60,755 nucleotides of DNA from a bacterium (lineage in GTDB: Bacteria; Chloroflexota; Dormibacteria; Aeolococcales; Aeolococcaceae). Both the position numbers and the translations under genes were made by a program. The notes under the pieces are model-generated. The model worked only from the letters and a program-made list of their open reading frames with translations, had not been told where the DNA came from and did not search any database. The stretch's first letter is position 1. Each line of letters begins with the position of its first letter. The stretch is taken from positions 1-60,755 of the forward strand of contig JACWAJ010000065.1 in assembly GCA_014874355.1 (NCBI GenBank), given 5' to 3'. Below are positions 20,352-33,462 of this stretch, piece after piece.

Positions 20352-20864
20352 GTGTTCCGCAGCCTCTTGCACCTACGCCATCGCAACGCCACCCGTCGGG
20401 GTGGCGATCATGCGATCTCGGATCTTACGGCCGTGCCCATCGAGCCGGTTCAGATCCGACGGAGCCGCACGCGGCGCGGCGGTCCGCGCACGCCGCTGCC
20501 ACTGGTGGGCCTCATCGCCATCGCAGCAGGCGTTGGCGTGGCTTATGTCGCCCAGGTCGCGCATGCGACGCAGGCGACGTACGAAGCGTCCCAGTTGCAG
20601 CGGGACGAGTCGCAACTGCGCACGGAAGCATCGCGTCTCGACGATCAACTGGCGCGGCTGCATGCCACGGAGCGTGTGGTTGCCGCGGCGCAACAACTTG
20701 GCATGCGTCCTGCCGGGCAATGGGCATATGTAGCGAGCCAGAAGGTCGTGGTCATCGAGGTTCCGAATCCCAAGCCTGCCACCCAGGTTGCATCCGGTGA
20801 TCCGCTGCAGCACTTCATTGCGGTTATCGGAGGCGCCTTCGGCGTCGAGGCTTCGAATCCGTGA
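20352..20864 (+). CDS. ftsL: FtsL-like division protein (GTG start)
   Basis: Position between rsmH and ftsI; one TM plus coiled coil. Confidence 0.7.
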   Translation: MFRSLLHLRHRNATRRGGDHAISDLTAVPIEPVQIRRSRTRRGGPRTPLPLVGLIAIAAGVGVAYVAQVAHATQATYEASQLQRDESQLRTEASRLDDQLARLHATERVVAAAQQLGMRPAGQWAYVASQKVVVIEVPNPKPATQVASGDPLQHFIAVIGGAFGVEASNP

Positions 20865-22669
20865 CGCCACGGCGGCCGTCCTTCGAACGTGGCGGTGCGG
20901 TGTCGGCGCGCCACATGGATGTGCGTACGGGCGCTCGCCGTGCCCGGGGATGGTTCGTAGGCGAACCGCCGAGCTTCCGTGGTCGGGCGTTCTGGCTGTG
21001 GTTGGCCTTCGTCTCGGTCGGCATCATTCTTGCGGGGCGTCTGGTCGACGTCCAGATCCGCCAAGGCAAACAGCTTGCTTCGGCTGCGGCGCAGATGCAC
21101 CAAATTTCGGTCGCGCTGAGCGCTCATCGTGGTCGCATTTTCGACGCCAACGGCAACATTCTGGCCAGCGATGTGGCGGTCTATGACATCTACGCCGACC
21201 CCAGCCTCATATCCAGCAGTGATCGTGCCGGGGTTGCCGCCCAGCTGGCTCCGGTTCTCAACATGGGACCAGGCCTGATCAGCGATCTCCTCGGCAAGGC
21301 CACGCACTTCGTCTACCTGTCCAAGGGCGTGTCCGCGGATGTGCGCAGCCGGCTCGAGGCCCTGCGCATTGATGGGGTGGGGGCCATAGAACGCGACAAA
21401 CGGGTATACGAACCCTCACCAATTACGCCCAATACCTTCGCTGAGCCCCTGCTGGGCTATGTCGATGGCGAGGGAAATGGCAGCTACGGTGTCGAACAGT
21501 ACTACAACAAGGCCCTCAAGGGTGTCGATGGCAGCGAATCCACGCTGCGCGACATGGCCGGCAACTCCATCGTGCTGAGCCAGCAGACGCACAAGGACGC
21601 TCGCGACGGATCTGATCTCCACTTGGGCCTCGACTCGCGCATTCAGTACTGGGCCGAACAGGCGCTCGCCAAAGGTGTGGCCTATGCGGAGGCTGAGTCG
21701 GGAGAGGTTCTCGTCATGGACACCAAGAGTGGTGTCGTTCGGGCTTGGGCACAGGATCCCGCCTACAACGCCAACGATTTCGCTCATGCCAATGTCGCCG
21801 ACTTCCGCGACCAATCGATTGCAGATCTGTATGAGCCAGGATCGACGATGAAGGTGATCACCTTCGCCGGTGGATTGAATGGTCAGGTGATCGCGCCCAC
21901 GACCACTCTCGACGAACAACCCCAAACGATTGATGGCTACACGATCCATGACTGGGACAACAAGGCGCATGGTTTGATCACCATGCAGGATGTGCTCGAT
22001 CAGTCTCTCAACAACGGCGCCATCCGGGTGATGCAGTTGCTGGGGCATGACGCCTTCTACAAGAACTTGCTGGCCTTCGGCGTGGGCTCGCCAACGGGAA
22101 TCGACCTTGCCGGCGAACAGAATCAGCCCTTGGAGCCGCAGTCGCAGTGGAGCGACATCGACTATGCCACCGCCTCGTTCGGACAACATGTCTCGATGAC
22201 GCCCGTGGAGATGCTGGCTGCTATCAACGCTGTCGGAAATGGCGGCGTCTGGGTGCAGCCCCATGTCGTGCAGGCCGTTGTCGATCCGGCCACCGGCAAG
22301 TCGACGCCGGTTGTGGCCACAACGCGGCGGGTCATGACGCCTGAATCTGCGAACACGCTGGCGACCATGATGACCGGCGTTGTGGACCACAAGAACGCTG
22401 AGGGATTCCTGGCACGGATTCCGGGATTCCAAGGCCAGATAGCCGGCAAGACGGGCACCGCCGACGAGCCCACCAACGGTCAGTACGAGGGTTCGCTGAT
22501 CGTCTCCTTCGGGGCGTTCATGCCCGTCAGCAATCCGCAGTTCACGATGCTCGTGGTGTTGCGATACCCGCACGAGACCAAGGTTCCCCGGTTCGGTGCC
22601 TTTCTGGCGGCTCCGGTGTGGAAGGACATCGCCCAGGTGATCGTCGACCAGTGGCGCATCTTGCCGTGA
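20861..22669 (+). CDS. ftsI: Penicillin-binding protein, FtsI/PBP2-type transpeptidase
   Basis: ADLYEPGSTMK, SLNNGAI, GKTGTADEP. Confidence 0.95.
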   Translation: MTPRRPSFERGGAVSARHMDVRTGARRARGWFVGEPPSFRGRAFWLWLAFVSVGIILAGRLVDVQIRQGKQLASAAAQMHQISVALSAHRGRIFDANGNILASDVAVYDIYADPSLISSSDRAGVAAQLAPVLNMGPGLISDLLGKATHFVYLSKGVSADVRSRLEALRIDGVGAIERDKRVYEPSPITPNTFAEPLLGYVDGEGNGSYGVEQYYNKALKGVDGSESTLRDMAGNSIVLSQQTHKDARDGSDLHLGLDSRIQYWAEQALAKGVAYAEAESGEVLVMDTKSGVVRAWAQDPAYNANDFAHANVADFRDQSIADLYEPGSTMKVITFAGGLNGQVIAPTTTLDEQPQTIDGYTIHDWDNKAHGLITMQDVLDQSLNNGAIRVMQLLGHDAFYKNLLAFGVGSPTGIDLAGEQNQPLEPQSQWSDIDYATASFGQHVSMTPVEMLAAINAVGNGGVWVQPHVVQAVVDPATGKSTPVVATTRRVMTPESANTLATMMTGVVDHKNAEGFLARIPGFQGQIAGKTGTADEPTNGQYEGSLIVSFGAFMPVSNPQFTMLVVLRYPHETKVPRFGAFLAAPVWKDIAQVIVDQWRILP

Positions 22670-22685: not shown

Positions 22686-23645
22686 ATGCTTCACGCGGCG
22701 CTGGCGCTGGGCTTTGGTCTTGTGCTCACGTTGGTGCTGTATCCGGCATTTCTCAGTCAACTCGTGAGTTTTCGCGCTGGCCAGCGAATTCAGGAGTATG
22801 GGCCCGCGAGTCATGCCACCAAGGTGGGCACACCCACGATGGGCGGCTTGCTCTTCTGCGTGGTCATCGCTGCGGCGTGGCTGCTCTTCGATCGCAGCCG
22901 GGCCGGGTTCGTTCTTGCCTTCGCATTTGGTGGCGGTGCCGCCCTGGGCCTGGTCGATGACGTGGCCAATGTTCGCGGCCAGGGCGCGCTGGGCCTGCTC
23001 GGCCGCCAGAAACTCCTGCTGCAAGCGGTCATAGGGGTTCTCGTCGGGATGGGACTGAATCAGATTGGGGCGACGCATCAAATCCTCCCGTGGTTGGGCG
23101 CCCCCGATCTTGGTGTCGCCATCGTGCCTCTGGCCGCACTGGTCGTTGTATGTGCCAGCAATGCCGTCAACATCACCGATGGCGTCGACGGACTTGCCGC
23201 CACGTGTTGTGCCGTTGCCTTCGGCGCTCTTCTGTTCATTGCGCTTGGCGTCCACAACCTCCCCGCCATAGTCATTTCAGCTACGACGCTGGGTGCGCTC
23301 GGAGGATTTCTCGTATTCAACTGGTTCCCGGCGCGCGTCTTCATGGGTGATACCGGGTCGCTGGCGCTCGGTTGTGCTCTGGTGGCCGTCAGCGCCGAAC
23401 TCCATCTGCTCTGGCTGCTGCCGCTGCTGGGGATAGTCTTCGTCGTCGAGACCCTCAGCGTCATCGTCAACGTGACCGCGATCAGGAAGTTCCATCGCCG
23501 GATCTTGCGTTCCAGTCCAATTCACCATCACTTCGAGGCTTTGGGGTTTCGCGAGCCGGTGATCGTCGCCGGATTTGGTTTTGTGGCGCTGCTGGCTGCG
23601 GTCGCGACCGCGCTCTACGCTCACCATCTCGGTGGCCTGGTATGA
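22686..23645 (+). CDS. mraY: Phospho-MurNAc-pentapeptide transferase
   Basis: GTPTMGGLLF, NITDGVDGLA, FMGDTGSLALG, PIHHHFEALGF. Confidence 0.97.
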   Translation: MLHAALALGFGLVLTLVLYPAFLSQLVSFRAGQRIQEYGPASHATKVGTPTMGGLLFCVVIAAAWLLFDRSRAGFVLAFAFGGGAALGLVDDVANVRGQGALGLLGRQKLLLQAVIGVLVGMGLNQIGATHQILPWLGAPDLGVAIVPLAALVVVCASNAVNITDGVDGLAATCCAVAFGALLFIALGVHNLPAIVISATTLGALGGFLVFNWFPARVFMGDTGSLALGCALVAVSAELHLLWLLPLLGIVFVVETLSVIVNVTAIRKFHRRILRSSPIHHHFEALGFREPVIVAGFGFVALLAAVATALYAHHLGGLV

Positions 23646-25003
23646 ACGAACGGGCGGTTGTCATAGGGCTTGGCAGGAGTGGCCTCGCGTGTGCCCGGTT
23701 TCTTCACGCCGAGGGCTTTCACGTCACAGTTGTAGATCGTGCGGACACTGCTGATCTACGTGTCGTGGCGGCCACATTGCCTCCTGATGTTGATGTCAGA
23801 CTTGGCGGTTACACAGCGGACGTTGGCCTTGGTGCCGCGCTTATCTGTCCGTCACCTGGGGTCCGGTGGGATTCACCAGAGCTGGAGCGAGCTCGCGACG
23901 CCGGTGTTCGCGTGCGCAGCGAGATAGACCTGTTTCTGGAACGCTGCCCGGCGCCGGTTGTTGCCATCACCGGGACCAACGGCAAGACCACGACAACTGC
24001 GCTGACCGCCGCTGTGATAGCGGTTTCCGGCGTGCGGGTGCATTGCGGCGGCAACATTGGCAACACCGTCTTGGACAGGATTGGTGACATTGCCGCAGAC
24101 GATGTTGTCGTACTCGAGCTCTCGTCTTTCCAAATCGAATCGCTGAGCCAGGCCAACTGTGATACCGGATGTGTACTGAACATCACACCCGACCACCTTG
24201 ACCGGCATACCACGCTCACGCACTACGCTGACCTCAAGGCTCGGTTGGTCGAGGGCGCCAAGCGGTGTGTCGTGCTAAATCACGACGACGCCATCACCCG
24301 TGCCATGGCGGCCAGAGCCGGTGCTGCGGTGAGCTTCTTTGGCTACGATCTCGCGGGTCACGACGGATCCTCCGTGGTCGGCGACAGTATTGTCAGCGTT
24401 GACTCCGGCCATGTCGACGCCTTCATGTCGGTGGCAGACGTGCCGCTTTTGGGGGCGCACAACATTGCCAACGTCCTGGCCGCAGTGTGCATGGGACGTG
24501 CCGCCGGCGTGGAACTCGAACAAATTGCCGAGGCGGTGCGAGGCTTCACCCCGGTAGTGCACAGGCTGCAGCCGGTGCGCGACGAGGATGGCATCCTGTG
24601 GGTCAACGACAGCAAGGCGACCAACGTGGATGCCGCGCAAAAGGCGCTGGATGCTTTTGGCAAGCGGCCGATTGTTTGGATTGGGGGGGGATCGAGTAAG
24701 GGCGTGGGGCCAGACGCTCTGGCCGATACGGTTACTGCTCATGCCCGGGTGGCCGTGCTCTGCGGGGCGACGGGGCCAGAACTCGACGCTGCGCTGGCGG
24801 TTCGCGGTTTTACCGAGCGCCACTTGGTGGCCGATCTCACCGCAGCGGTGCAGCGGGCGCGCGAGGTTGCTCGCCCTGGCGATGTCGTTCTGCTGGCGCC
24901 TGGATACGCCAGCTTCGACCAGTTCCACGACTTCGAAGAACGTGGTCGGGTCTTTACGGCGCTGGCCAATGGCACTTGTGAGCCGACCGTTGAGGAAGTG
25001 TGA
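23642..25003 (+). CDS. murD: UDP-MurNAc-L-alanine--D-glutamate ligase
   Basis: ITGTNGKTTTTAL, ELSSFQIESL, NITPDHLDRH, VNDSKATNVDAAQKAL. Confidence 0.96.
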   Translation: MNERAVVIGLGRSGLACARFLHAEGFHVTVVDRADTADLRVVAATLPPDVDVRLGGYTADVGLGAALICPSPGVRWDSPELERARDAGVRVRSEIDLFLERCPAPVVAITGTNGKTTTTALTAAVIAVSGVRVHCGGNIGNTVLDRIGDIAADDVVVLELSSFQIESLSQANCDTGCVLNITPDHLDRHTTLTHYADLKARLVEGAKRCVVLNHDDAITRAMAARAGAAVSFFGYDLAGHDGSSVVGDSIVSVDSGHVDAFMSVADVPLLGAHNIANVLAAVCMGRAAGVELEQIAEAVRGFTPVVHRLQPVRDEDGILWVNDSKATNVDAAQKALDAFGKRPIVWIGGGSSKGVGPDALADTVTAHARVAVLCGATGPELDAALAVRGFTERHLVADLTAAVQRAREVARPGDVVLLAPGYASFDQFHDFEERGRVFTALANGTCEPTVEEV

Positions 25004-26307
25004 TGCCGACAACTGCCCAGGCGTTCCAGCGAGAATCCGAGTCGATGAAAGCTGAGTCTTTGATGCGGCGTCTGCGCCGCCGTGGTCGCGTGACCCTTGT
25101 CGACGAGCGGGTCGAGAAGGCAGGGGGCATCGATGGCTGGCTATTGACCGTTCTGGCGGCGCTTTGTGCCTTTGGCCTCGTCATGGTCTATTCGGCATCG
25201 GAGGCACTCGGCTACATCCGGACTCTCAATGCCAACTACTTTTTCGAGCGCCAGGCGGGAGCTTTGGCGCTGGGACTTCTCGGCCTCATCGTGGCGTCGC
25301 GCTTCGACTACCACCGCTGGCGTAAGTTCACCAAACCGCTCGTGATCGCGACCTTGGTACTTCTGGTCCTCGTGCTGGTGCCGCATCTCGGGACCAGTCG
25401 TAATGGAGCGCAGCGTTGGTTCTCCATTGGTCCCCTATCGGTGCAGCCCTCCGCGGTGGCGGCGGTCGTCGCCGTCGTGGCGCTGGCGCGCTGGCTCAGC
25501 GATCGCGGGCCGCAGGTGCGTGGCTGGCGTGGGGTGCGCGACTACAGCGTGGTCGTGGGTGGGCTGCTGCTTCTGATACTGCTCGAGAAAGACCTGGGTA
25601 CGGCCATCGTGGCCGGATGCGTGGCTTTGGCGATGCTGGCACTGGCCGGTGGTCGCAAGCGTCATCTGGTCGCGCTACTGGGGTTTGCCTCCGTCGCCGG
25701 CTGGATGCTCATCCAGGTGGAGTCCTATCGTGCGGCCCGCCTGGCCAGCTTCACCAATCCCTTCGCGGATCCGCTCAACACCGGTTACCAACCTGTCCAG
25801 GCACTCTACGCGCTGGGTTCCGGCGGGTTGACGGGCGTGGGGTTGGGCAACTCGATCGAGAAGTACAACTGGCTGCCGGAGGCCCATTCCGACTTCATCT
25901 TCGCCATCATCGGGGAGGAACTCGGCCTCATCGGAACCCTTTGCGTGATTGCTGCGTTTCTATTCCTGGGCTGGCGTGGCATCCGTGCTTCGCTGCGTGC
26001 TCCCGACAGCTATGGCGCTCTGCTCGCCGGAGGAATCACTGCGTGGGTCTGTATCCAGGCGTTCATCAATATCGCTGCTGTCACCAATGTCATCCCCACC
26101 ACGGGGATACCGCTACCCTTCATCAGTTACGGTGGCACGTCACTGGCGATGACGCTGGTGGCAATGGGGATACTGTGCAATGTCTCGGCACAGGGTCGCC
26201 GGCAGGGAGAAATGCGGCGTGCGTACGTTGATCGCTGGCGGAGGAACGGGGGGGCACCTGACTCCCGCACTGGCACTTGCACAGGCGCTGCAACACAGCG
26301 AAGCTGA
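25003..26307 (+). CDS. ftsW: Lipid II polymerase FtsW (SEDS family)
   Basis: Multi-TM; LPEAHSDFIFAIIGEELGL, IPLPFISYGGTSL. Confidence 0.95.
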   Translation: MPTTAQAFQRESESMKAESLMRRLRRRGRVTLVDERVEKAGGIDGWLLTVLAALCAFGLVMVYSASEALGYIRTLNANYFFERQAGALALGLLGLIVASRFDYHRWRKFTKPLVIATLVLLVLVLVPHLGTSRNGAQRWFSIGPLSVQPSAVAAVVAVVALARWLSDRGPQVRGWRGVRDYSVVVGGLLLLILLEKDLGTAIVAGCVALAMLALAGGRKRHLVALLGFASVAGWMLIQVESYRAARLASFTNPFADPLNTGYQPVQALYALGSGGLTGVGLGNSIEKYNWLPEAHSDFIFAIIGEELGLIGTLCVIAAFLFLGWRGIRASLRAPDSYGALLAGGITAWVCIQAFINIAAVTNVIPTTGIPLPFISYGGTSLAMTLVAMGILCNVSAQGRRQGEMRRAYVDRWRRNGGAPDSRTGTCTGAATQRS

Positions 26308-27331
26308 AGCTCAGGTTCTGCTCGTCAGCCGTCGTGGAGGCGTTGCCGAGGACTTGGTTCATGCCGTCCATGTGCCGCTGGAGGCCATTCCGATCAGCGG
26401 TCTGGATCTCGGCAACGCCCGCTCCATGGTTGCCTTCGCCAGCCGGCTGCCGGGCGGTCTGCTACATGCGCGCAGATTGATCCGACGCTTCGCGCCCGAT
26501 GTGGTGGTGGGTGCGGCGGGATACGTGTCCGTTCCAGTCGTTGCCGCGGCACGGATGGCGAAGATTCCGGTCGTCCTACTCGAACAGAACGCCTTGCCCG
26601 GCAGGGCGACGCGGCTGTTCGCTGGAGGAGCTCATGTGGTCGCGGCGTCATTTGCCGGTACGGCCAAGTCCCTGCCCAAAGCTCGTGTCGTTCATACCGG
26701 CAATCCCATCCGGGCGGAGGTGGAGGCAATACCGCGCAGGCCGCTTGGCGAGCGCTGCCGTCAGGTTCTGGTAATGGGGGGCAGCCAGGGGGCACGGCGG
26801 CTCAACGAGGCTGTGCTGGCCGGTCTTCGCGAACTCCTTGAATCTGACTCCGAGATTGCGGTTACGCACCAGACCGGAGCGCTGGACGAGGCGCGTGTGA
26901 CACGCTTTCGCCTTGCCCTGCCGGTGGAGTTGCAGGCCCGCTATCACGTTGCGGCGTTCTTCTCCGATATAGCCTCCGAAGAAGCGGCGGCCGATCTGAT
27001 CGTCATGCGGGCGGGTGGATCGTCGCTGGCCGAGGCCTCTGCCCTGGGACGTCCCATGGTGCTCGTGCCCTACCCTCACGCAGGTGGTCACCAGCAATAC
27101 AACGCCGCCCCCTACGTCGACATGAATGCCGCCGTGTCGGTGGACGATGCGGAGTTCTCGGGCAATCGCTTTGTCGCCGAGGTTCGCCGGATGATCGTCG
27201 ACCGGGCCCGTTGGCACGCGATGGCCAGGGCGTCATCGGCGATGGGCCGGCCGGATGCTGCTGCGCGCGTTGTCGAGTTGGTCGGCGAGGCCGCCACATG
27301 GCGCCAGTTCAAGGACAGGGTGCATTCATGA
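26219..27331 (+). CDS. murG: UDP-GlcNAc--MurNAc-(pentapeptide) pyrophosphoryl-undecaprenol GlcNAc transferase
   Basis: VRTLIAGGGTGGHLTPALALAQAL, VVGAAGYVSVPVVAAARMAKIPVVLLEQNALPG, MGGSQGARRLN. Confidence 0.96.
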   Translation: MRTLIAGGGTGGHLTPALALAQALQHSEAEAQVLLVSRRGGVAEDLVHAVHVPLEAIPISGLDLGNARSMVAFASRLPGGLLHARRLIRRFAPDVVVGAAGYVSVPVVAAARMAKIPVVLLEQNALPGRATRLFAGGAHVVAASFAGTAKSLPKARVVHTGNPIRAEVEAIPRRPLGERCRQVLVMGGSQGARRLNEAVLAGLRELLESDSEIAVTHQTGALDEARVTRFRLALPVELQARYHVAAFFSDIASEEAAADLIVMRAGGSSLAEASALGRPMVLVPYPHAGGHQQYNAAPYVDMNAAVSVDDAEFSGNRFVAEVRRMIVDRARWHAMARASSAMGRPDAAARVVELVGEAATWRQFKDRVHS

Positions 27332-28746
27332 CGGAGACGGTGGGGAGCCAGTTGCCGCAGCACGTCCACTTCCTGGGTGTCTGCGGCTATGCCGTAAGCG
27401 GAGCCGCGCTGCTTGCCAAGCAGATCGGCTGCATGGTTACCGGCAGCGACGATTGCGCCTATCCGCCGACAACCGATATCCTGACTGGGGCGGGTATACC
27501 CTGGGTCGACGGGAGCGATCCTGTCAATCTGGACCGCTGGGGGCTGCCCGACCTGGTCGTGGTGGGTAACCAGACCCGGCCTGGCAATCCCGAGTGGCAG
27601 GCGGTGCGCTCGCGGAGCATCCCCTACACGAGTGAGATCGAGTTCTTCGCACAACTCACCCAAGATCGTGTACGGCTCTCGGTGTGCGGTACCCACGGCA
27701 AGACGACAACCACGGCTTTACTGGCACACATGCTGGCTGTCGCAGGCCTGGATCCGGGCCTGAGGCTGGGTTCGACCTCGCTCGATCTCGGTGCCAGCGC
27801 ACGTCTGGGCAAAGGGCCGTTTGTGTTCGAAGGCGACGAATACACCACCGCCCCCTGGGATCCTCGGCCCAAATTCCTACACACCCGACCCCAGGCCGCC
27901 TGTGTAACGCGGCTCGAACTCGACCATCCCGACATCTACGCATCGCTAGATGCCTATCGTGAGCCCTTCGTGGAGCTGGCGAAATCCATGCCGGTGGACG
28001 GTCTGCTCGCGGTGTGTGCCGACGATTCCGAAGCGGTGGCCCTGGCGCCATCCGCCACCTGCCGTGTGGTGACCTACGGCGAATCACCAAGTGCCGGCTG
28101 GCGCATCTCCCATCTGCGCGATGTGGCCGGCGTGCAGCACTTCCACCTGAACGGAGAGGGGGCGGAACTCGAGGTGGCCCTCACCTTTCCGGGCCGCCAC
28201 AATGCGGCCAATGCTTGTGCCGCGCTGCTGCTGGCGGCATACGCCGGCGCATCTCTGCCGGACTGTCTTTTGGCATGCACCACCTTCCGCGGACCGGCGC
28301 GTCGCTTCCAGATCCTGGGTGAGGTTGGGGGATGCGCCGTGGTTGACGACTATGCCCATCATCCGACCGAGTGCCACGCCGCCATCGATGCGGCGCGGCA
28401 GCGCTATGCCGGGCGGCGTCTCATCGCCGTCCACACGCCGCACACGTATTCGCGCACGCTCACGCTGCTCGACGACTACGCCGATGTGTTCGAAGGCGCT
28501 GACGTGCTCCTCCTCGGTCCTATCGAGGCGGCCCGAGAACGTGGTCAGGAGGTCACGGTCACCAGTGAGGATGTGGCCGCGAGGGTGCGTCATGTGCCCC
28601 AAATTCAAGTTGTCGATACCAGTCAAGCGGCCATCGACCTGATCGGTGAAATCGTTCGAGACGGCGACGTCGTGCTGGTGCTGTCTTTGGGTGGGTTCGA
28701 CAAGATCGCATCGCGCATCCACGCGGCACTTAGGGCTCGTACCTGA
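27328..28746 (+). CDS. Mur ligase in the murC position with Mpl-type sequence features
   Basis: VHFLGVCGYAVSG, VTGSDDCAYPPTTDIL, VVVGNQTRPGNPEWQAV, VCGTHGKTTTTALL, FEGDEYTTAPWDPRPKFLHTRPQ. Confidence 0.9.
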   Translation: MTETVGSQLPQHVHFLGVCGYAVSGAALLAKQIGCMVTGSDDCAYPPTTDILTGAGIPWVDGSDPVNLDRWGLPDLVVVGNQTRPGNPEWQAVRSRSIPYTSEIEFFAQLTQDRVRLSVCGTHGKTTTTALLAHMLAVAGLDPGLRLGSTSLDLGASARLGKGPFVFEGDEYTTAPWDPRPKFLHTRPQAACVTRLELDHPDIYASLDAYREPFVELAKSMPVDGLLAVCADDSEAVALAPSATCRVVTYGESPSAGWRISHLRDVAGVQHFHLNGEGAELEVALTFPGRHNAANACAALLLAAYAGASLPDCLLACTTFRGPARRFQILGEVGGCAVVDDYAHHPTECHAAIDAARQRYAGRRLIAVHTPHTYSRTLTLLDDYADVFEGADVLLLGPIEAARERGQEVTVTSEDVAARVRHVPQIQVVDTSQAAIDLIGEIVRDGDVVLVLSLGGFDKIASRIHAALRART

Positions 28747-28923: not shown

Positions 28924-29868
28924 ATGCCTGAACCGGGTGGGATTGCAAGTTGGCCGGGGGCGCGCGCGGATGAACCGCTGGCGAGGCATTCGCAGTACGG
29001 CATAGGCGGGCCTGCAGACTGGTTCGTCAAGGTGGACGACGCGATGGCACTCGGCGATCTGCTCCGTCTGGCGAATGCGGCCGGACTGCCTGTCACTCCG
29101 ATCGGGGCGGGCAGTAACACGCTCATCCTTGATGGTGGCATCCGGGGCGTGGTGGTCGAAATCACCGACAAGGCGATGCGCGTCATCGACGATACGGTGA
29201 TCGAGCTTCGAGCCGGCTGCATGCTGCCTCGAGTGGCCCTGGACTGTGCTCGGCTGGGCCTTGCCGGGCTCGAGTTCGGCATTGGCATTCCGGGAACGTG
29301 TGGTGCCAGCATTCGTGGTAACGCCGGTGCCTTTGGTCGTGAGATCAAGGATGTTCTGCTGGAGTGCTCCGCGCTGGATGTGCAGGGTGCGATGCGTACG
29401 TTTTCGGCTTTGGAATGTCAGTTTGCTTATCGCACCTCGATCTTCAAACAGTCGCTCACAGACAGCATCGTCGTTGCGGCGCGTTTTGGCGTGACACCCA
29501 ACACCGCCTATGCCGTGCGGCGGCGTACCGCCGCCATCCAGGCACACCGCAAATCAACCCAGCCTTATGGTATTCGGAGTCTCGGTTCGGTTTTCACCAA
29601 CCCTCCGGGTGATCATGCCGGGCGCCTCGTAGAGGCGGTGGGGTTAAAGGGCGCTCGTCGCGGCGGGGCAGAGATATCGACCGTTCATGCCAATTTTATT
29701 GTCAACGTGGATCGAGCCACCGCACGAGACGTTCTTGACCTGGTGGAACTGGCTCACGACCGGGTGCTGGCGGACTTCGGCGTCGATCTTGTGCGCGAAA
29801 TCGTTGTCATGGGCGAGGATAAGGCGCGGTCGGAACCGTCGGTGACGAAGCGGAGGAGTGGCGGGTGA
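28924..29868 (+). CDS. murB: UDP-N-acetylenolpyruvoylglucosamine reductase
   Basis: HSQYGIGGPADWFVKV, IGAGSNTLILDGGIRG, GIPGTCGASIRGNAGAFG, IRSLGSVFTNPPG, AEISTVHANFIVN. Confidence 0.95.
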   Translation: MPEPGGIASWPGARADEPLARHSQYGIGGPADWFVKVDDAMALGDLLRLANAAGLPVTPIGAGSNTLILDGGIRGVVVEITDKAMRVIDDTVIELRAGCMLPRVALDCARLGLAGLEFGIGIPGTCGASIRGNAGAFGREIKDVLLECSALDVQGAMRTFSALECQFAYRTSIFKQSLTDSIVVAARFGVTPNTAYAVRRRTAAIQAHRKSTQPYGIRSLGSVFTNPPGDHAGRLVEAVGLKGARRGGAEISTVHANFIVNVDRATARDVLDLVELAHDRVLADFGVDLVREIVVMGEDKARSEPSVTKRRSGG

Positions 29869-31055
29869 GGCGTGTCGGTGTGGTTTTCGGCGGGCAGTCG
29901 GTTGAGCACGAAGTGTCGGTGATCACCGCCATGCAGGTGATGGCGGCATTGCCCGCGGCCGGTTACGTCGCCGTGCCGCTTTACATCGCCAAGTCGGGCA
30001 CCTGGTATACGGGTGACCTGTTGAACCGTCTCGATGCATTCCGGGATTTCGACCGGGTGCTGCGGGGTGCAATGGCGGTTACACCGCGGATTGACGGCGC
30101 GCATCCCGGCCGGCTCGATGTGGTGGGCGGTCGGCGCGGCATCTTGGGGCGTGGTTCCGCTGCCGAGATAAGCGTCGACGTGGTGCTGCCGCTAGTGCAT
30201 GGTTCTCATGGCGAGGACGGCACTCTGGCGGGGCTTTGCGAACTCTGGGGAGTGCCCTATGCCGGCTGTGGCGTGGCCGCTGCGGCGCTGTCCATGGACA
30301 AGTCGCTGGCCAAGCGCATATTCCGCGCAGCCGGTCTTCCCGTTCTCGATGACATGGTGGTTGAACGCCAGCATTGGCTCCAAGATTCCCCTGCCGCCGT
30401 CTCTAAGATCGAGCATTGCTTCGGCTATCCGGTCTTCGTCAAACCGGCAACTCTCGGTTCGTCGATTGGCGTTTCCCCCGCCGGATCTGCCCGCGAGCTG
30501 CGCGACGCCATCGACCTCGCCCTTGCTTACTCCGACCGGGTGCTGGTCGAGCCTCAAATGCAAGATATCGTGGAGATCAACTGTGCCGTGCTGGGAAGCG
30601 GTGACACCGTTCGCGCTTCAGCCCTGGAGCAACCTGTGGTCAGCGGGGTGCTCACCTATGCGGAAAAGTACGCAGGCGGGAAGAAGGCGGCAAATGCCGG
30701 CATGAAGGGCGCTCGGCGGATCGTCCCGGCACCGATCGACGTTGCGCTGGCCGGCCGCATAAGCCGGCTGGCCAAGGACGCATTTCACGCCATCGGGGCG
30801 GCGGGTGTCGCTCGAGTCGACTTCCTGGTCTCACCTGAGCGCGGTGAGGTCATCCTCAACGAGATCAACACAGTCCCGGGATCGCTGGCCTTCTATCTCT
30901 GGGAGGAGTCGGGACTTCCCTTTGCCGAGCTGCTGAACTCGCTCATCGACCTGGCGTTTGCCGCAGATGCAGAGAGATCGGGCACCACCTATTCGATCGA
31001 TTCGTGGTTGCTTGCGGGTGGGATCGGCGGGGTCAAGACGGGGGGCTCCGCCTGA
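29865..31055 (+). CDS. ddl: D-alanine--D-alanine ligase
   Basis: VVFGGQSVEHEVSVITA, FVKPATLGSSIGVS, VILNEINTVPGS. Confidence 0.95.
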   Translation: MRRVGVVFGGQSVEHEVSVITAMQVMAALPAAGYVAVPLYIAKSGTWYTGDLLNRLDAFRDFDRVLRGAMAVTPRIDGAHPGRLDVVGGRRGILGRGSAAEISVDVVLPLVHGSHGEDGTLAGLCELWGVPYAGCGVAAAALSMDKSLAKRIFRAAGLPVLDDMVVERQHWLQDSPAAVSKIEHCFGYPVFVKPATLGSSIGVSPAGSARELRDAIDLALAYSDRVLVEPQMQDIVEINCAVLGSGDTVRASALEQPVVSGVLTYAEKYAGGKKAANAGMKGARRIVPAPIDVALAGRISRLAKDAFHAIGAAGVARVDFLVSPERGEVILNEINTVPGSLAFYLWEESGLPFAELLNSLIDLAFAADAERSGTTYSIDSWLLAGGIGGVKTGGSA

Positions 31056-31060
31056 GTGCG

Positions 31061-31846
31061 ATGACTAACCTTCTCGACATCGTCACCGAGGTGCCGCCGG
31101 CCCACGTCTTGCTGGCGGGGGAGGGGCCGCCGGTGCTGTGTCTCCACGGCTGGGGCGCCAGTGCCGGATTGTTCGTGCCTCTGAGCCGCGAACTTGACGA
31201 TCGGTTCTTCCTGATCGCCCCCGATTTCCCGGGATTTGGCGCGACGCCCGTGCCTGAGCGACCTTGGAGCGTTGACGATTACGTCGTCTGGACACTCGCG
31301 CTTCTCGACCGTCTGGGACTCGTCCGTGTCGACATAGTTGCCCATTCGTTTGGGGCACGGGTGGCCATCAAACTCGCGGCAGCGCATCCTGAACGGGTTG
31401 GGCGCATGGTGCTCACAGGTGCGGCAGGGGTGCGCCCCAAGCGCGGTATCGGCTACTACTTGCGCGTGCGTACTTTCAAGTTGCTGAAGCGCGTGCGTTC
31501 CGCACATATGACCCTGAGGTGGGTACGAGATTGGGCCTGCCGTCGAGTCGAGCGCAGCGGTTCGCGCGACTACCAGGCTGCCGGCGGGGTGATGCGGGGA
31601 ACTTTCGTCAGCGTCGTCAATGAGGACCTTGTCGAGTGGCTGCCCAAGGTGACGGCATCCACCTTGCTGGTCTGGGGCGACCGCGACGACGAAACCCCGC
31701 TCCGTGATGGCCGTCTCATGGAGCAACGCATCCCCGACGCGGGTCTGGTGATATTCGAGGGACGGAGCCATTACGCCTACATCGAGGAGGCGGCGCGTTT
31801 CGCGCACATAGTGGCCACGTTCTTGAGCGGCGAGGCCGCAGCATGA
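31061..31846 (+). CDS. Alpha/beta hydrolase
   Basis: VLCLHGWGASAGLF, VDIVAHSFGARVAIKLA nucleophile elbow; overlaps the next Mur-ligase gene. Confidence 0.9.
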   Translation: MTNLLDIVTEVPPAHVLLAGEGPPVLCLHGWGASAGLFVPLSRELDDRFFLIAPDFPGFGATPVPERPWSVDDYVVWTLALLDRLGLVRVDIVAHSFGARVAIKLAAAHPERVGRMVLTGAAGVRPKRGIGYYLRVRTFKLLKRVRSAHMTLRWVRDWACRRVERSGSRDYQAAGGVMRGTFVSVVNEDLVEWLPKVTASTLLVWGDRDDETPLRDGRLMEQRIPDAGLVIFEGRSHYAYIEEAARFAHIVATFLSGEAAA

Positions 31847-33462
31847 TCGGTGGCGTCGGAATTGCGATGGTGGCGTTGCTGTGGCTTCTGGCCATAACCC
31901 GTATCTCCGTTGTGGCGTCGCGAATGTTCCAGATCGAGGAATACGAGGCGCTCCGGCTCTGGAGATGGGCCAATGTGCGCGCCTGGAACTGGCATCGCGC
32001 GCTCGCCGTTGCGAGCGCTGCCGCTCTAGTCCTGGCAGGGGTTGCGGTACTGCGCAACGAATCCTATTGGGTCATCGCCGAGGGCCTCACGGGCACCGCG
32101 CTGCTCAACCTCTTGTGGCGCTGGCTGCCGCCCAAGAAGGCGCTGGTGTGGACGCCACGCATGCGCCGCCTATTCGCGACGACGGTGGTACTGGCGGTCG
32201 TCCTGACCGCCGCCGTCGCCATCCTGGCGCTTCGCAGTCCGGTGGTCGTGGGGGCGGTGGCCGTATGGGTCGGGATCTTCATGGCGAGCACCATCCCCGT
32301 CTTTCTGTTCGTAATTGCCAACTGGCTGATGGCTCCCGTCGAGGCCGGGGTGCGGTGCGGCTTTATCCGCCGTGCCCGCCGCCGCCTTGCCGCGGTCGAT
32401 CCGGTTGTCGTAGCGGTGGCGGGGAGTTGGGGCAAGACGTCGACCAAGCACATCCTCGCCCAGCTATTGCCCGCAGCTGCTTTCGCACTGCCCACGCCGC
32501 GGAGTTTCAACACCCTGATGGGGGTCACCCGCACCGTCAACGAGAATCTCGCGGATTCGCACAAGACGTTCATCGTGGAGATGGACGCTTACGCTCCGGG
32601 CGAGATCGCCTCCATTTGCGATCTGGTGCACCCGCGGCTTGCGATCGTGACCGCGGTGGGTCCGCAGCACCTCGAGCGTTTCGGCAGTATCGAGCGAATT
32701 GCAGACGCGCTGTACGAGACCGTCGCTGCGCTTCCCCCCGAGGGTGTCGCGATCATCTATGCGGGGGATCCCAGTTGTGCCGCACTGGCACTGCGCGCGG
32801 TCGGGGAGAAGCGCCGGGTCGTCACCTACGCCATGGAGGGCGAGGGCGTCAACGCCGACATCTCCGCGACCGACGTCCGGGTCGATGGTGGGGGTTCTCA
32901 CTTCATGTGGCGCTGGGGGGCGGAGCAACTGGAGACAAGGGTGGACGTGCCACTGCTGGGGCGTCATCAGGTGCTCAATGTCAGCGCCGCGTTGGCGGCT
33001 GTGCACCTGCTCGGCTTCGATGCGATCGCGGCGGTGTCATCTGCGGCACGGTTGCAACCTGTCGAGCACCGGCTGCAACCGGTTCCCAGTGGCCACGGAG
33101 TTGTCGTCATTGACGATTCCTACAACGCCAATCCCGTTGGCGTCCACAACGGCCTGGACGTCTTATCCGCGCTTGGCGAAGGCAAGAGGATCCTTGTGAC
33201 ACCGGGACTGGTTGAACTAGGCGCCGAGGAAGATGCCGAGAACCGGCGCTACGGTGAGCACGCGGCCCGTGTTTGCGATCACGTGATCGTCGTACGCGCC
33301 AAGACCACTGAGGCGTTACTGGCGGGCCTTGGCGCCGGGGGTATCGACGCGAAGGCCGTCCATGTGGTGGCATCGCTGGCCGAGGCCACCACGGTCATAG
33401 GTTCGCTTGCCCGTCGCGGAGACGTGGTTCTCTTCGCCAACGATCTTCCCGACACGTACTAA
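31843..33462 (+). CDS. MurF-like Mur ligase with N-terminal multi-TM domain
   Basis: About 4-5 hydrophobic helices in the first ~180 aa, then VAVAGSWGKTSTKHIL, RSFNTLMGVTRTVNENL, VVIDDSYNANPVGVHNGLDVL. Confidence 0.9.
   Translation: MIGGVGIAMVALLWLLAITRISVVASRMFQIEEYEALRLWRWANVRAWNWHRALAVASAAALVLAGVAVLRNESYWVIAEGLTGTALLNLLWRWLPPKKALVWTPRMRRLFATTVVLAVVLTAAVAILALRSPVVVGAVAVWVGIFMASTIPVFLFVIANWLMAPVEAGVRCGFIRRARRRLAAVDPVVVAVAGSWGKTSTKHILAQLLPAAAFALPTPRSFNTLMGVTRTVNENLADSHKTFIVEMDAYAPGEIASICDLVHPRLAIVTAVGPQHLERFGSIERIADALYETVAALPPEGVAIIYAGDPSCAALALRAVGEKRRVVTYAMEGEGVNADISATDVRVDGGGSHFMWRWGAEQLETRVDVPLLGRHQVLNVSAALAAVHLLGFDAIAAVSSAARLQPVEHRLQPVPSGHGVVVIDDSYNANPVGVHNGLDVLSALGEGKRILVTPGLVELGAEEDAENRRYGEHAARVCDHVIVVRAKTTEALLAGLGAGGIDAKAVHVVASLAEATTVIGSLARRGDVVLFANDLPDTY

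Follow-up and report, generated by a model that had tools for sequence, protein, structure and literature searches.

The stretch of DNA analysed here (the window, 60,755 nucleotides) carries at 27328-28746 (+) an open reading frame for a 472-residue Mur ligase. As judged from its sequence and surroundings, this protein is probably the only UDP-MurNAc:L-alanine ligase of its host, i. e. the enzyme with MurC function, and would stem not from canonical MurC but from an insert-bearing lineage which is sister or ancestral to the recycling ligase Mpl. All three Mur-ligase Pfam domains are present. The gene follows murG and precedes murB in a complete dcw cluster spanning mraZ to ftsZ, and its start codon shares bases with the stop of murG (ATGA at 27328-27331). 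The host is one of a group of uncultured soil bacteria; its genome (1.45 Mb, 98.8% complete) has Ca. Dormiibacterota/Aeolococcus as its named relatives. The features of the locus are as follows.

20861-22669 (+), ftsI (open reading frame; same gene order in relatives)
22686-23645 (+), mraY (TIGR00445, 232 bits, above cut-off)
23642-25003 (+), murD, the D-Glu ligase, which requires UDP-MurNAc-L-Ala as substrate (TIGR01087, 374 bits, above cut-off)
25000-26307 (+), ftsW (open reading frame; gene order in relatives)
26219-27331 (+), murG, start approximate (TIGR01133, 243 bits, slightly under the cut-off of 250)
27328-28746 (+), predicted insert-bearing MurC, 472 aa, the genome's sole MurC/Mpl-family gene (open reading frame, NCBIfam, Pfam, genome search)
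27361-27663 (+), N-terminal UDP-MurNAc-binding domain, Mpl-like, with GVCGYAV, YPP and GNQTRPGN (PF01225, residues 12-112)
27682-28236 (+), central ATP-binding domain with GTHGKTTT, EGDEY and DHPD (PF08245, residues 119-303)
27853-27873 (+), 7-residue insert PWDPRPK, residues 176-182, counterpart of the Mpl motif (S/T)AFFDKRSK (alignment)
28300-28683 (+), C-terminal amino-acid-binding domain, MurC-like (PF02875, residues 325-452)
28345-28365 (+), DDYAHHP, with Y342 and H344 at the positions of the L-Ala contacts Y346 and H348 of H. influenzae MurC (alignment; contacts from PMC3060825)
28438-28455 (+), PHTYSR, with H372, T373 and R376 at the positions of MurC H376, R377 and R380; Mpl has EPRSNT here (alignment)
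28924-29868 (+), murB (NF010480, 300 bits, above cut-off)
29865-31055 (+), ddl, D-Ala-D-Ala ligase (NF002528, 305 bits, above cut-off)
31843-33462 (+), MurF-like ligase with a hydrophobic N-terminus and without a PF01225 domain (profile searches, sequence)

Neither of the two NCBIfam cut-offs for the family was reached by the window protein. With murC (TIGR01082) it scored 321.4 bits against a curated cut-off of 335.1 and was 14 bits short, and with mpl (TIGR01081) it scored 260.4 bits against 388.7 and was far short. The murC cut-off was passed by one homologue from the Dormibacteria family f3 (342 bits) and by the Doudnabacteria protein L081 from the Patescibacteria (348 bits).

The initial annotation had called the product an Mpl-type ligase on the basis of motifs quoted from this gene. 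Every one of these motifs was found, and for the N-terminal and central motifs, to which the insert can be added, the description was apt. It overlooked the C-terminal domain, which is of the MurC type (DDYAHHPTE and PHTYSRT vs DDFAHHPTA and EPRSNT in Mpl). The same division appeared in the per-domain identities, which were taken from a 116-row subset of our 217 MurC/Mpl-family proteins. The N-terminal domain of the window protein is closer to Mpl (mean identity ~38% vs ~29% to MurC), the central domain is about equally similar to both, and the C-terminal domain is closer to MurC (39% to Chloroflexota MurC vs 28-29% to Mpl).

The insert lies at the place of the motif (S/T)AFFDKRSK, which was described with the Mpl structure as missing from other Mur ligases (Das et al. 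2011, PMC3060825). The window protein has TAPWDPRPK here, of equal length and identical at 5/9 motif positions. All 27 Dormibacteria rows of families f1-f3, all 27 Mpl rows and all 17 selected Patescibacteria rows (CPR_ins) contain the 7-residue insert, vs 0/36 aligned rows of canonical MurC; thus the likeness to Mpl goes beyond chance. Its D and K are almost invariant among the insert-bearing rows, and the full insert was not found in MurD, MurE or MurF in the outgroup alignment.

The amino acid pocket gives the opposite picture. L-Ala is contacted in H. influenzae MurC by Y346, H348, H376, R377 and R380 (PMC3060825), and at these positions, which derive from a MurC complex of another phylum than the window organism's, the window protein has Y, H, H, T and R. 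All Chloroflexota MurC rows likewise have T as the fourth residue, and the second position is common to MurC and Mpl. Taken together, all 27 Dormibacteria rows and all 17 insert-bearing Patescibacteria rows have the MurC and not the Mpl type at the five positions. The Mpl-specific C-terminal residues were absent from the window protein in the alignment: F374, E402, R404, S405, N406, T407 and N484 of P. arcticus Mpl are replaced by Y, T, H, T, Y, S and L.

Trees were calculated for the full protein, for the N-terminal and central part and for the C-terminal part, with the insert columns dropped where relevant; they sample four phyla only. In all three the Dormibacteria family fell between canonical MurC and Mpl, adjoined by some Patescibacteria ligases, and the two partial trees share the order canonical MurC, Dormibacteria/Patescibacteria, Mpl. 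When the trees were rooted with MurD, or with MurD, MurE and MurF together, and the insert columns were removed, the insert-bearing rows formed one clade with a support of 100/97 and 100/96, respectively. Inside this clade several Patescibacteria branches split off one after another before Mpl (100/100) and the Dormibacteria, i. e. Mpl is nested among Patescibacteria and Dormibacteria ligases. The Dormibacteria group with the Patescibacteria proteins L240-L243 (96/87 and 99/94), and their sister relation to Mpl has moderate support (83/92 and 89/90). Placement of the Dormibacteria inside canonical MurC was rejected under the model used (AU p = 0.0031); a clade of Dormibacteria and Mpl was not rejected by the AU test (p = 0.108). 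The window protein is therefore outside canonical MurC and in an insert-bearing clade that includes Mpl. As the outgroup is distant, which calls for a warning about long branches, the unrooted grouping is firmer than the direction of change (a single gain of the insert, with Mpl as the derived form).

In the 98.8%-complete genome the only genes with a PF01225 domain are the window gene and murE, the latter scoring above a DAP-type equivalog cut-off. A second, canonical murC, for which the initial annotation had proposed to search, was not found in this genome. Genes for de novo synthesis are present with murD, murE, ddl, murB, murG, mraY and the MurF-like gene. Together they point to a stepwise route that needs UDP-MurNAc-L-Ala, and only the window gene can supply it. 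The tripeptide for recycling is supplied by LdcA and AmpG. LdcA (Peptidase_S66) was not found in the host genome and was absent from 31 of the 41 genomes searched, and no AmpG above the cut-off was found in any of these 41. Attachment of a tripeptide to UDP-MurNAc is disfavoured by the absence of LdcA and AmpG and by the MurC-type pocket. The initial annotation had left a choice between an Mpl-like enzyme serving as MurC and preformed peptides being attached to UDP-MurNAc. The second option is not supported, given the presence of MurD, MurE, Ddl and a MurF-like protein and the lack of LdcA and AmpG. The first is supported in a phylogenetic sense, as the sole MurC candidate falls into the insert-bearing clade with Mpl, and the proposed phylogeny of MurC versus Mpl gave no robust placement inside canonical MurC.

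The MurF-like gene at 31843-33462 is the only one of its kind in the genome. Its product has no N-terminal UDP-MurNAc-binding domain (PF01225) and begins with ~180 residues of strongly hydrophobic character, which suggests a membrane-anchored MurF. This N-truncated hydrophobic type occurs in most relatives, whereas 8/41 have a full-length MurF of the soluble type instead. ddl and the MurF-like gene flank an alpha/beta hydrolase gene (31004-31846, +) that overlaps each of them and is also found in L049.

Different readings of these data have to be weighed. One is that the gene encodes a true Mpl, a recycling tripeptide ligase in the murC slot, with UDP-MurNAc-L-Ala made by another enzyme or route. 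The Mpl-like N-terminal and central motifs, the insert and the grouping with Mpl rather than with canonical MurC speak for it. Yet no second MurC was found in the genome or in the 103 Dormibacteria genomes with a match, the C-terminal pocket is of the MurC type, the mpl score is 260 vs a cut-off of 389, LdcA is missing from the genome and AmpG from the relatives; hence we regard this reading as very improbable. Just as hard to credit is an ordinary canonical MurC with a convergent or superficial likeness to Mpl, albeit murC is the top NCBIfam score (321 bits), the f3 homologue exceeds the murC cut-off (342 vs 335) and MurC entries are the best structural matches. This is contradicted by the AU test and by the insert-bearing clade, which is supported even with the insert columns removed.

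The identity gradient, with an N-terminal domain closer to Mpl and a C-terminal domain closer to MurC, also raised the possibility of a recombinant gene with N-terminal and central domains from Mpl and a C-terminal domain from MurC. However, both domain trees gave the same intermediate position with the same Patescibacteria neighbours, and the same pattern recurs in several Patescibacteria groups. Since the separate domain trees agree, the lineage would be intermediate and not recombinant, and the recombination origin, which we consider most unlikely, was discarded. Finally, the enzyme could be an ancestor-like generalist with a dual function, using L-Ala for synthesis and the tripeptide for recycling. 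The tree position between MurC and Mpl fits such a role, as does the finding that E. coli Mpl weakly accepts L-Ala and rescues murC(Ts) when overexpressed (PMC3060825). Against it stand the missing tripeptide supply via LdcA and AmpG and the absence of the Mpl-specific E402, R404, S405, N406, T407 and N484, and we think it unlikely. A sole MurC from the insert-bearing lineage is thus the reading that we prefer.

The AlphaFold model of the window protein (mean pLDDT 88.9) matched MurC crystal structures best (TM 0.87). Full-length Mpl gave a lower value of 0.70, but this structure (3hn7) was solved with the C-terminal domain rotated; the two-domain Mpl 3eag and its MurC counterpart 6cau fit the model equally well. 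Because Mpl was solved in a different domain arrangement, the fold comparison does not discriminate between MurC and Mpl.

Within the Dormibacteria, 103 of 110 genomes gave a strong match and have one MurC/Mpl-family gene each, which is split into two fragments in three of them. The window-type enzyme occurs in families f1, f2 and f3 (30 + 15 + 18 = 63 genomes), whose full-length matches show 45-69% identity. In family f4 (40 genomes) the type is a different one, only 33-39% identical to the window protein; it exceeded the murC cut-off in those genomes where it was scored, and none of the four sequences read has the insert, i. e. it is a canonical MurC. None of the 103 genomes with a match contains both types, and a search of 151 Chloroflexota genomes gave no Mpl above the TIGR01081 cut-off. 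As far as the contigs reach, gene order is alike in the inspected loci of f3 (two genomes) and f4 (four genomes): ftsI-murF-mraY-murD-ftsW-murG-X-murB-ddl-ftsQ, where X is either MurC type. The presence of the two MurC types in the same murG-X-murB slot of these dcw clusters (L196-L201), within one class, suggests that one type replaced the other in place, in either direction.

Compared with the known families, the window protein shares with MurC (TIGR01082) the fold, the catalytic motifs, the C-terminal L-Ala contacts, the murG-murC-murB slot and the status as sole copy; it differs in the central insert, in the Mpl-type N-terminal motifs, in its position outside the canonical clade and in its score 14 bits under the cut-off. 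With Mpl it has in common the insert at the (S/T)AFFDKRSK position, the YPP and GN motifs, EGDEY and a sister or near-sister position in the rooted trees. Unlike Mpl, it has a MurC-type C-terminal pocket, scores far under the mpl cut-off, does not occur alongside a separate MurC and is not accompanied by a detectable LdcA/AmpG tripeptide supply. Its closest counterparts are insert-bearing Patescibacteria ligases (Doudnabacteria L081/L083; L238; L240-L243; L250/L253; L246/L259), which likewise combine the insert with a MurC-type C-terminal domain and of which the Doudnabacteria copies also lie between murG and murB. However, they are only ~30-35% identical to the window protein and do not form one group but occur on several branches of the clade. 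Patescibacteria have been placed near Chloroflexota/Dormibacterota, and a common ancestry with Dormibacteria is thought likely (PMC12329446).

Some further members of the family were encountered. Five alphaproteobacterial MurC/Mpl-like proteins with the insert (L091, L093, L095, L098, L100) have an altered C-terminal motif, which in L091 from Aquisalinus reads EGFGSSYEK in place of DDYAHHPTE; L091 accompanies a normal MurC as an additional copy and lies outside the dcw cluster. Patescibacteria ligases of the MurC/Mpl family with an odd C-terminal domain (L244, L245, L249, L252, L255; DDIAHSPTK, EPNTGN) group with these alphaproteobacterial paralogues. In the phylum of Aquisalinus, G286, G238, G302, G314 and G326 (L227-L231) have an Mpl above the cut-off and very few other Mur-ligase matches; possibly these genomes are incomplete.

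A likely mechanism is that the window enzyme binds UDP-MurNAc and ATP via its Mpl-like N-terminal and central domains, forms the acyl phosphate and accepts L-Ala in the C-terminal pocket with the MurC contact residues, yielding UDP-MurNAc-L-Ala for MurD. The loop with the insert would help to position UDP-MurNAc and the domain interface, and tripeptide specificity would not follow from it alone. Mpl would then have evolved within the insert-bearing clade through changes to the C-terminal domain (HTYSR to RSNT, DDY to DDF), and our comparisons suggest that this recycling enzyme was derived from ligases of the window kind. There is a small chance that Mpl descends from insert-bearing MurCs like those of Patescibacteria and Dormibacteria and that, in addition, the Dormibacteria enzyme is still a generalist which joins L-Ala as well as murein peptides to UDP-MurNAc. 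In the open-licence literature we found no paper describing a MurC/Mpl intermediate.

The insert thought to be unique to Mpl thus occurs in ligases which, judging from copy number and gene context, act as MurC. Hence the insert alone cannot mark a tripeptide ligase, and caution is advisable before such genes are annotated as mpl. In the Dormibacteria, two MurC types alternate at a single dcw slot inside one class. As a bridge between MurC and Mpl, the family suggests a path from a biosynthetic to a recycling ligase in which the insert came first and the C-terminal remodelling later. With the insert-bearing ligases at hand, the origin of Mpl becomes testable.
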